In this document: positions 1-44,686 of the stretch, piece after piece
Layout: every line of letters starts with the position of its first letter
How positions within the stretch are numbered: position 1 is the stretch's first letter
Assembly (NCBI GenBank): GCA_033344895.1
Contig: JAWPMN010000001.1
Coordinates: 930,001 to 994,000 of the forward strand
Length of the DNA: 64,000 nt
Direction of reading: 5' to 3'
From: Alphaproteobacteria bacterium
GTDB taxonomy: Bacteria; Pseudomonadota; Alphaproteobacteria; UBA8366; Aestuariispiraceae
The notes under the pieces: generated by a model
Told to the model about the DNA's origin: nothing
Databases searched by the model: none
What the model saw: the letters and a program-made list of their open reading frames with translations, nothing else
Position numbers and translations under genes: made by a program

Positions 1-719
1 GTCCGAACGCCGGCCGCGGCCAATTGTTCCGCAAAGTTTTGGGCCTGCGTGATCAGATGCGGGAAGTCCTTCGATCCGAAGGCCACCAGGAATGGCGGTG
101 CGTCCGGACGGATATGCGTGACCGGCGAGGCCGGTCCCTCGTTGCCCAGTTCGGGGTCTCCCAGGAAGCGCGGGCGCATGGAAAGTCCCGACGCATCACC
201 GAAAAGATAGGTCCCGGATATCGGCAGGGCCGACTTGATGACATTTGTCGGGACTTCGCATGCGCCTTGCCAGTCCGTGCGAAGTGCCAGCAGGGCGGAT
301 AGATGGCCCCCGGCCGAATGCCCCGCCACATGGATCTGTTCAGGGTCGCCGCCAAAATAGGCAATGTTCCGCCAGGTCCAGGCAACCGCCTTCGCGCAGT
401 CCTCGAACTGGGTCGGATACACATGATCCGGGGCCAGCCGATAGCCAAAGGAGACAACCGTGATGCCTCGGGTCGTCAGGGCGGGCGCCATAAAGGCCAT
501 CCATTCCTTGTAACCATTGGTCCAGCCGCCGCCATGAATCAGGCAAAGGACGGGTCCCGCAGGCTTTTCGGCCTGATAGACAGCGACGGACTGATACGGG
601 TCGTCGCCAAGGGAGACATCACTTCCCGCAACCTCGGCACCAAGACGCAGCACCTCCGCGTGATAGCGTTCGCCGATGGCCGAGAAGGGTTCCTGTGCCG
701 GATAGTCCTCAGGCCGCAT
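1..719 (-). CDS. Alpha/beta hydrolase, kynurenine-formamidase/BD-FAE-like (3' end outside window)
   Basis: The 239 visible residues carry the oxyanion-hole motif HGGGW (about 62-66) and the nucleophile elbow GHSAGG with Ser135. This pairing is typical of the BD-FAE, carboxylesterase and kynurenine-formamidase branch of alpha/beta hydrolases. The gene runs off the left edge, so the catalytic His is not visible and the C-terminus is missing. The ATG overlaps the end of the molybdenum hydroxylase large-subunit gene by 11 bp, which implies translational coupling as last visible gene of the operon. Members of this branch hydrolyse esters or N-formyl amides. Given the NicX-like gene at the head of the operon, an N-formyl-amide substrate is a reasonable inference but is not proven. 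Confidence 0.85.
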   Translation of the reverse strand, partial: MRPEDYPAQEPFSAIGERYHAEVLRLGAEVAGSDVSLGDDPYQSVAVYQAEKPAGPVLCLIHGGGWTNGYKEWMAFMAPALTTRGITVVSFGYRLAPDHVYPTQFEDCAKAVAWTWRNIAYFGGDPEQIHVAGHSAGGHLSALLALRTDWQGACEVPTNVIKSALPISGTYLFGDASGLSMRPRFLGDPELGNEGPASPVTHIRPDAPPFLVAFGSKDFPHLITQAQNFAEQLAAAGVR

Positions 720-43666: not shown

Positions 43667-44686
43667 ATGTCGGATTTGGCGATTGCGGGGATTTCGAGCC
43701 TGACCGCGGGCGACGAGGAACAACTCGTCACCATGACGGTCGACAGTCAGTTGTTCGGTATTCCAATCCTGCGCGTTCAGGATATCGTGGAGCCGGTTCA
43801 GATCACACCTGTGCCGCTTGCCTCTTCGGCTGTCGCCGGCGTCCTCAATCTGCGCGGCCGGATTGTCACGGTCATCGACCTGCGGGTTTGCCTGGGCGCG
43901 GAACCGAAGGATCTGAGCGAACGGCCGATGTCCGTTACCGTCGAACACAAGGGTGACCTTTACACCATCCTTGTGGATTCGATCGGCGACGTCCGCTCCT
44001 TGCCGCGTCGAGACCTCGACAAACCGCCACAGACCCTGGACGCGCGCATGCGCAAGCTATGCTCGGGCGTGTTCCGCCTGCAGGATGACCTGCTGGCGGT
44101 TCTGGACGTGGAACGCGTGCTGGATCCGGCCACCATCGCCGAAGCACCGAAGCGGCGACCGCTTAAGCGCCACAAGACGGCGAAAACCACGGGCGGCGCG
44201 CCGCAGAAGAAGGCGTCCAAGAAGCCGGCCTCCAACGACGATTCGGAGCCCGCCAAAGGAAAAAAGCCTGACGCCGCCAAGCCGAGCAAGGCCAAGGCGG
44301 CGGAAAAAGCATCGGCTGAGCCGGGATTGTATGAACGGCTGGGCGGCGAACTCGGCGTAGATGCGATGGTCGATCTGTTCCTGGAGAAGGCCCGGGCGGA
44401 CGCCCGCCTGAGCCCCTTGCTGGAAGGCGGCGACCCGTCGCAGCAGGCAAAGCATGTCAAATCCTACCTGACGCAGACCTTCGGCGGGCCGGCGGCCTAC
44501 AAGGGCCCCAACATCGCTGGCATCAGCCGTCATCTGGTCCAGGATAAGGAGATGGACGACGGGCATTTCATTGCGGCTGCGGGCTACATGGCGGACTGCC
44601 TGAACCAGATGGGCATGCCGGCCGAACTGATCGACGAGGTCATGGCCGCCGTGGAAGACGTTCGTGACGAGCTCATGGGACGCTGA
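43667..44686 (+). CDS. CheW domain fused to a truncated-hemoglobin-like domain lacking heme ligands
   Basis: This 339-residue protein has a CheW domain at about 17-155 (VTMTVDSQLFGIPILRVQDIVEP, SAVAGVLNLRGRIVTVIDLR, FRLQDDLLAVLDVERVL). A Lys/Ala/Pro-rich linker of about 60 residues (158-218) follows. A group I truncated-hemoglobin-like domain covers about 220-339 (LYERLGGELGVDAMVDLF, LTQTFGGPAAYKGPN, DDGHFIAAAGYMADCLNQMGMPAELI). Aligned by eye with cyanobacterial GlbN, the proximal His (F8) is Ser287, the B10 Tyr is Leu239 and the CD1 Phe is Leu; only the E10 His (His263) remains. CheW couples chemoreceptors to CheA. The globin half may be a non-heme sensor or scaffold. It is not beside other che genes. 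Confidence 0.9.
   Translation: MSDLAIAGISSLTAGDEEQLVTMTVDSQLFGIPILRVQDIVEPVQITPVPLASSAVAGVLNLRGRIVTVIDLRVCLGAEPKDLSERPMSVTVEHKGDLYTILVDSIGDVRSLPRRDLDKPPQTLDARMRKLCSGVFRLQDDLLAVLDVERVLDPATIAEAPKRRPLKRHKTAKTTGGAPQKKASKKPASNDDSEPAKGKKPDAAKPSKAKAAEKASAEPGLYERLGGELGVDAMVDLFLEKARADARLSPLLEGGDPSQQAKHVKSYLTQTFGGPAAYKGPNIAGISRHLVQDKEMDDGHFIAAAGYMADCLNQMGMPAELIDEVMAAVEDVRDELMGR

Follow-up and report, generated by a model that had tools for sequence, protein, structure and literature searches.

A CheW adaptor fused to a truncated-hemoglobin-like domain that lacks the classical heme ligands

CheW is the adaptor that joins chemoreceptors to the kinase CheA, and it is commonly viewed as a passive link. Here we describe a gene in which CheW is fused, through a basic linker, to a truncated hemoglobin (trHb)-like domain that is predicted to keep the globin fold and has neither the proximal histidine nor the other classical heme ligands. 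The gene lies in a 64,000-nucleotide stretch of DNA (hereafter the window) from a single-contig, 4.64-Mb alphaproteobacterial genome (G000). It is not a one-off: the gene belongs to a wider family of CheW-globin fusions, and in the other branches of that family the heme ligands are kept. Judged by its residues, the window domain would not bind heme, and it probably does something other than O2 sensing. Our preferred reading, held tentatively and at a probability of roughly 0.43, is that the domain works without heme, as a docking or tuning module in the array baseplate, and derives from an ancestral heme sensor.

Gene architecture, predicted fold and genomic setting

The gene is a single continuous open frame, with an ATG at 43667, a stop codon at 44684-44686 and no internal stop. 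Its parts, and the codons that matter for the argument below, are the following (coordinates are those of the window).

43667..44686, + strand: whole gene, CheW - basic linker - truncated-hemoglobin-like domain, 339 aa plus stop (open frame)
43721..44125, + strand: CheW domain, residues 19-153 (PF01584, 108.8 bits; fold match to E. coli CheW 6s1k_C, Z 17.1)
44144..44314, + strand: Lys/Ala-rich linker, about residues 160-216, predicted disordered (pLDDT <50 over 164-217; pN/pS 0.39-0.79 in 13 pairs)
44324..44683, + strand: trHb (2/2 globin) domain, residues 220-339 (PF01152, 40.6 bits; phmmer to THB1 4xdi, 1.4e-18; predicted helices A-B-C-E-F-G-H; 6cii, Z 17.6, 2.3 Å)
44381..44383, + strand: Leu239 codon, position B10, Tyr in heme-binding group I relatives (sequence alignment)
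44420..44422, + strand: Leu252 codon, position CD1, Phe in heme-binding group I relatives (sequence alignment)
44453..44455, + strand: His263 codon, position E10, distal; His in 2 of 11 members of the window's family, the window protein and G004 (sequence alignment)
44525..44527, + strand: Ser287 codon, position F8, proximal His lost; within predicted helix F, 283-293 (alignment and model)
44564..44566, + strand: His300 codon, near the start of predicted helix G; invariant (11/11) in the window's family although the pocket is lost (column table and model)

At the N-terminus, the PF01584 match spans profile positions 1-135 of 138 and exceeds by far the curated cut-off of 23.5 bits, and this half of the predicted model superposes on E. 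coli CheW over 141 residues at 2.7 Å. Arg63 of the window protein aligns with Arg62 in the NLRG motif of E. coli CheW, which we take to have a functional role. At the other end, Bac_globin (PF01152) matches residues 221-335, where the curated cut-off is 21 bits. With E values admitted up to 10, Pfam returned CheW, Bac_globin and one sub-cut-off DUF match on the window protein and nothing else; neither a receiver domain after CheW, nor Protoglobin, nor STAS was among the matches.

The fused architecture is real. Because a relative with 81% identity (G004) aligns with the window protein end to end, the fusion is not a frameshift or an assembly joint, and the same domain order in one frame recurs in the 11 members of the window's family (f1) and in 22 members of the order, so that a fusion created by annotation was likewise rejected. 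A divergent hydrolase gene adjoins the cheW-globin gene in eight of nine loci; the ninth (L039) starts only 361 bases before the gene.

Among solved structures, the best relative of the globin part found by phmmer is Chlamydomonas THB1 (gapless over 119 residues), followed by cyanobacterial GlbN. An AlphaFold2 model, built on the sequences of 10 relatives and with a mean pLDDT of 65.6 overall, contains the CheW strands, a linker disordered over residues 164-217 and, in the order typical of trHbs, seven helices: A 221-224, B 227-244, C 246-252, E 257-271, F 283-293, G 298-314 and H 319-337, with block means of pLDDT of 70-86 over these globin helices. In a structural alignment of the model with THB1 (6cii), 124 of 124 residues are aligned, 216..339 on 6..129. 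If this alignment is gapless, as the equal lengths imply, residues 287 and 263 fall on THB1 residues 77 and 53, which we take to be its heme ligands.

We also built a profile without any row from the window's family. It gives the window's globin domain 91.7 bits, whereas none of 560 shuffled sequences exceeds 5.7 bits, and it finds the globin in all 11 fusion proteins of the family, at 28 to 122 bits. Pfam alone detects it in four of the 10 family proteins scanned, so that ordinary annotation misses most of them. The lowest globin score in the family belongs to Aestuariispira, whose domain is also predicted as a globin and reaches Z 12.3 to 6cii over 118 residues, with a best Foldseek E value of only 6e-3; the alignment behind that model included less diverged relatives, which may pull it toward a globin. 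A sequence-only reading of the window had proposed one frame joining CheW, a basic linker and a trHb-like domain whose fold persists. The open frame, Pfam (including the PF01152 profile), the model and the fold search bear out this arrangement, and the heme-less domain is predicted to retain the globin fold.

Within the genome, a profile search for PF01584 found three domains, one in the window gene and two in a single CheA, the fusion being the only CheW outside CheA. This CheA carries Hpt, dimerization, HATPase, CheW and receiver domains. Its domain listing shows a single CheW stretch; the second CheW match comes from the PF01584 search and scores 24.2 bits against the cut-off of 23.5. Its gene has HPTransfase, cheY, cheB and cheR genes as neighbors, and the PF01584 search of the genome placed no cheW in this cluster. 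By its predicted domains the protein has the two CheW domains and the receiver of the F5-class pattern, as given in a survey of CheA architectures (PMC10782961). The genome further contains 18 MCP (receptor) matches and one flagellin match. With these receptors, the flagellin and the CheA cluster, the fusion would serve as the stand-alone adaptor of a working-looking array. It is also the sole CheW outside CheA in G001, G004, G006, G007, G011 and G013; further CheWs outside CheA occur in G008, G009, G010 and G012.

Several observations were made alongside. The HPTransfase-domain gene lies directly before cheA in the G000 chemotaxis cluster (locus L078, 9314-10006, + strand) and is presumably ChpT-like. 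The linker between the Hpt and dimerization domains of CheA (L078, 10100-12931, + strand; L100-L117) holds a short motif resembling ELQAAFDxAxYKGPGDP in disordered-looking surroundings; the motif is found in the window's family and in two f2 genomes, is shortened in f4, is doubled in G007 and G012 and does not occur in any of the three f3 genomes read. G000 also has another PF01152 match (C1:843853-844110, L044; 28.6 bits), which lies in a 160-aa frame and looks like a stand-alone globin. Two congeners, G003 and G005, have no CheW domain at E 0.001, which suggests a loss of chemotaxis inside the window's genus; a third, G002, has a distant stand-alone CheW only, together with a shorter CheA-like frame. 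Finally, a database record titled 'MAG: Mesoflavibacter sp.' (CP051228.1, L034) contains all 14 window genes tested at 67-97% protein identity. Mesoflavibacter is a Bacteroidota name, and the label of this record looks wrong.

Heme-ligand positions in the window protein and across the order

In the alignment with Synechocystis GlbN, Tyr22 (B10) corresponds to Leu239, Phe35 (CD1) to Leu252, Gln43 (E7) to Gln260, His46 (E10) to His263 and His70 (F8) to Ser287; E11 is Val in the window protein and Gln in GlbN. The ligand positions assigned by eye in the sequence-only reading, with Ser287 at F8, Leu239 at B10, a Leu at CD1 and the E10 His kept, were all right, and neither the sequence alignment nor the structural one places a conserved His at F8. 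His289, two residues on, was considered as F8 and rejected, as the gapless THB1 and GlbN alignments, together with G004, which has His at both places, fix F8 at 287. Our argument weighs on F8 and CD1. B10 is a weak criterion because Tyr is missing there from 14 of 20 diverged, low-scoring stand-alone trHbs; all 20 have the F8 His and an aromatic residue at CD1.

A close relative of the window CheW is present in 30 of the 43 genomes of the order, and 22 of these 30 carry the globin. Seven of the remaining eight (all f4) have a long tail without a detected globin, which in two cases is truncated by the end of the contig; the eighth (G028) is likewise truncated and does not enter any globin count. 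Among the 13 genomes without a close CheW, nine have no CheW domain at E 0.001. As a separate observation, the f4 tails (L020, L022-L027) share a conserved block (LSALMTDLNAYE ... RRPVxERWQEVL) and no globin. Outside the order, six CheW open frames of 224-373 aa were considered as further candidates and set aside; their length is upstream open sequence, and no globin was found in them.

Heme ligands differ between the branches. Seven f3 genomes (among them G038, counted though its CheW part is cut) and G027 of f2 have the F8 His, Tyr at B10 (Phe in G042) and Phe at CD1. In G021 and G030, positions B10, CD1 and F8 are Tyr, Tyr and His, and G037 has none of these ligands. In the window's own family, where the fusion occurs in 11 of 14 genomes, the F8 His is missing from 10 of the 11 and the full B10-CD1-F8 set from all of them. 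Single ligands survive: Tyr at B10 in G011, Phe at CD1 in G006, G009 and G010, and the F8 His only in G004, the closest relative of the window protein. Five of the 11 members have Tyr at F8 (L003, L005, L008, L011, L013), a residue that can ligate heme in other proteins, and part of the E-helix stretch is deleted in G001.

A CheW tree of 29 of the 30 order members and 10 outside CheWs sets the order apart (support 100/99), with the window's family weakly supported (54/22). Because G004 is nested among members that have lost the F8 His, the tree needs at least three changes of F8 state within the order. The ancestor of the family probably bound heme, since relatives in two other families (f2 and f3) keep the classical ligands. 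The sequences point to a heme-binding domain that was fused early and lost its ligands later, with F8 in the window's line perhaps lost recently; in another reading, the F8 His of G004 is a regain.

Constraint on the heme-less domain and its possible role

We compared the columns of the 11 family members with those of 19 closer stand-alone trHbs, leaving the diverged L097, L128 and L134 out of a set of 22. Six residues (GlbN Tyr22, Phe35, Phe50, Tyr61, Arg67 and His70) are invariant in the 19 stand-alone trHbs and scattered in the window's family, where no strong new consensus is found at these positions; at F8 the commonest residue is Tyr (5/11). Other residues are kept, namely H300 (GlbN His83) and R333 in 11 of 11 members and D245, L248, G273, L290, D298 and L312 in 10 of 11. 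In the model, H300 falls close to the N-terminal end of helix G and R333 close to the C-terminal end of helix H, hence at the same end if the two helices are antiparallel. The fold or surface is kept and the pocket is not, a pattern that suits a docking module better than a sensor for a single new ligand. Most of the conserved positions are also conserved across trHbs in general and may hold the fold rather than form a binding face.

Of the two functions that we could infer for the domain, an adaptor is favored over a sensor of a ligand other than O2 because the heme-less members have no conserved new pocket. In our proposal, the window globin would descend from a heme-binding group I trHb hung on a flexible linker, which in the CheW-globin ancestor would have carried a gas or redox signal directly to the array baseplate. 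Heme would then have been given up in the window's family and the apo-globin retained as a folded docking or tuning module. Each CheW of a ring would hold one globin below the ring on its linker of about 60 residues, so that many copies would crowd the baseplate. The apo-globin may bind a partner, such as a response regulator, the P1 domain of CheA, a polar anchor or a neighboring globin, and this binding or packing would shift kinase output or array packing without heme. Two features speak against a docking module, as His263 at E10 and the Tyr at F8 in five of the 11 members leave some heme ligation possible.

We estimated pN/pS (NG86) for 13 pairs, nine from the window's family, three from f3 and one from f2; synonymous sites are near saturation in many of these pairs, and the values are rough. 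Globin pN/pS lies between 0.08 and 0.67 in all 13 pairs, with upper bounds of at most 0.88. It is 0.30-0.67 in the nine pairs of the window's family versus 0.08-0.34 in the four pairs with the F8 His. Because the ratio of globin to CheW pN/pS is higher in the former (2 to 7.5) than in the latter (0.7 to 2.6), constraint looks relaxed after heme loss.

The linker provides a second yardstick. Between G000 and G004, globin pN/pS is 0.31 (0.23-0.44) and that of the linker 0.39, with wide overlap, and identity is 0.65 in the globin versus 0.74 in the linker; for the window-genus pairs with G001, the values are 0.53 and 0.60 for the globin versus 0.46 and 0.60 for the linker. Among G006, G009 and G010, the globin is clearly the better kept, by pN/pS (0.30-0.31 versus 0.51-0.63) and by identity (0.58-0.67 versus 0.43-0.46), and the same holds for pN/pS in two pairs among G008, G011 and G013 (0.38-0.42 versus 0.63-0.72). 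The pair G007-G012 gives 0.67 for the globin and 0.79 for the linker. Constraint on the heme-less domain thus persists, clearly above that on the linker in two subgroups of the family and not in the window's own genus; purifying selection on it is partly shown.

These values bear on the strongest alternative, namely that the domain is a decaying relic, a heme sensor that has become useless and drifts toward loss, as in the f4 tails. The globin of the window's genus changes as fast as the linker, globin pN/pS is raised in the family relative to the F8-His pairs, G001 has a gap in the E-helix stretch, and the seven f4 proteins (two of them cut by contig ends) end in a tail in which no globin was found. 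A relic is less likely in our estimate than a retained module, although the window's own genus may well hold one. Against decay stand pN/pS below 1 in every pair, a frame that is open in all 11 fusions of the family, a globin that is still recognizable in each of them and two subgroups in which it is better kept than the linker.

Less likely still is a different small hydrophobic ligand in the emptied pocket, such as an alcohol, a fatty acid, a quinone or another tetrapyrrole, which would make the domain a cytoplasmic sensor signaling through CheW. A cavity could remain in a heme-free globin fold, and the window protein has Leu, Leu, Val and Ser at B10, CD1, E11 and F8. The globin domain of HemAT is moreover reported, in passages of PMC7542364, to sense ethanol between helices and not at the heme. 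A shared ligand should, however, keep the residues that line its pocket, and these are unconserved among the 11 members.

We give the least weight to unusual heme binding, in which His263 at E10 would be the sole axial ligand (or, in relatives, the Tyr at F8 a ligand) and the signal would be redox, NO or heme itself: the E10 His of the window protein and G004, the F8 His that G004 also has and the recurrent F8 Tyr are in its favor, and the B10 change alone is no counter-argument given the diverged F8-His trHbs described above, but the window protein has Ser at F8 and a non-aromatic CD1, a position that is aromatic in all 20 of those trHbs, and the E10 His is confined to two of the 11 members, with part of the stretch deleted in G001.

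Globins on CheA and comparison with known systems

A PF01152 search of 385 Alphaproteobacteria genomes revealed further trHb domains in long frames, in ten genomes about 3.1 kb or less from a cheW on the same contig. The 20 regions fetched hold 16 CheA proteins with 18 trHb domains, two receptors with an N-terminal trHb and two stand-alone trHbs. CheA-trHb fusions are accordingly present in at least 16 of the 385 genomes, at least four shorter frames of 259-290 aa (G165, a second one in G206, G135 and G223) having been left out. Pfam was run on five of the 16 and gave the order Hpt - Bac_globin - dimerization - HATPase - CheW, with a receiver in four; the frame of the fifth (G340) ends early. 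The other 11 were recognized by eye, and the frames of G237 and G267 stop short of the protein end.

In these proteins the globin occupies the place that the CheY-binding P2 domain has in other CheA. G101 (L080, 1354-4953, + strand) has a second trHb at residues 709-824, which Pfam profile positions and the sequence place inside the P5 CheW-like domain, with a part of that domain on either side. By eye, G123 (L093) looks alike, with one trHb within P5 and one between the Hpt and dimerization domains. In 11 of the 16 genomes, a search at E 1e-30 found a cheW whose open frame of 150-191 aa is too short for a globin. Conversely, no globin was found in 19 complete and one partial CheA of the window's order (best score 0.8 bits), and no PF01152 match was listed in the frames of G023 and G026 or of CheAs of other classes. 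The globin is thus on the kinase or on CheW and was not seen on both; these states are clustered by lineage, so the pattern is not a test.

The F8 His is lost from 11 of 22 CheW-fused and 7 of 18 CheA-fused trHbs, and from 0 of 2 receptor-fused and 0 of 44 stand-alone ones. By Fisher's test, with kinship ignored, this gives p 1.2e-7 for 18/40 versus 0/44, and p 8.2e-5 for the CheA-fused domains alone (7/18 versus 0/42). The 44 stand-alone domains are 22, two references and 20 low scorers; the first 20 controls were mostly high scorers, and the low scorers, some of which score below degenerate CheA domains, were added to offset this. CheW-fused rows were found through CheW and stand-alone rows through PF01152, so that stand-alone globins too diverged for PF01152 are missed; the CheA-fused rows were also found through PF01152. 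At least five lineages have lost the F8 His: the window's family, G037, the genus g55 (four genomes), the pair G340/G417 and G129. A globin tree (66 rows, 126 columns) gives five F8 changes when gaps are counted as loss; 30 of its 63 inner branches are open and long branches meet, and this poor resolution does not decide whether the CheA and CheW globins go back to a single fusion event. Among plasmid records, none covers 80% of either query, and the Azospirillum matches consist of two pieces of the CheA query (52%) that skip the globin.

The CheA parallel suggests a trend and not an accident. A wider version of our preferred reading would be that trHbs have been repeatedly captured by array-core proteins (by CheW here and by CheA elsewhere, including within P5), repeatedly stripped of heme, and now form a heme-free globin module common to array baseplates, one that acts on the kinase through protein contacts. 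We consider this generalization doubtful, and somewhat more so than the reading for the window's family itself. In several genomes the only stand-alone CheW carries a globin, and input or tuning could therefore enter the array below the receptors. With full sets of heme ligands, the half-stripped G004 and heme-less members, the family also offers a series for how a gas sensor becomes something else.

Known systems share parts of this design. Like any CheW, the window protein has the full PF01584 domain and the fold of E. coli CheW, from which it differs by its C-terminal linker and globin. CheV, a CheW-receiver fusion according to passages of PMC4742279, likewise adds a C-terminal regulatory domain to CheW; that domain is a response-regulator receiver in CheV and a trHb in the window protein. 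With the group I trHbs GlbN and THB1, the window domain shares the sequence family, the helix order, the G-helix His and the E10 His, but it is part of a signaling scaffold and lacks the F8 His, the B10 Tyr and the CD1 Phe. The CheA-trHb proteins, which are F5-like, are similar in carrying a trHb on an array-core protein, in some copies without the F8 His; they differ in that the host is the kinase, with the domain between the Hpt and dimerization domains or within the P5 CheW-like domain.

Two further comparisons concern globins tied to signaling assemblies. In HemAT-type globin-coupled sensors, as passages of a 2026 aerotaxis review describe them (PMC13401364), a globin is likewise tied to the chemotaxis array; there it is N-terminal, heme-bearing and on a receptor, whereas in the window protein a 2/2 globin lacking the proximal ligand sits at the C-terminus of an adaptor. 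The N-domain of RsbR in the stressosome is described as a heme-less globin fold on a large signaling assembly. The window protein has no Pfam match to the RsbR family, although weak matches can drop in HMMER's filters, and no STAS domain was found in it. No fusion of CheW or CheA to a trHb or other globin was among the matches listed from open papers. The main text of the survey of CheA architectures (PMC10782961) contains no word beginning with 'globin', and the matching passages of a trHb family paper (PMC4720485), of the CheV paper (PMC4742279) and of the aerotaxis review (PMC13401364) do not mention the fusion.

The two receptors from the 385-genome search form a separate observation. Both (L094 in G327 and L098 in G235) begin with a trHb that keeps its heme ligands, followed by repeats that look PAS-like by eye; G327 also has an MCP-like signaling part, and the frame in G235 runs into the contig end.
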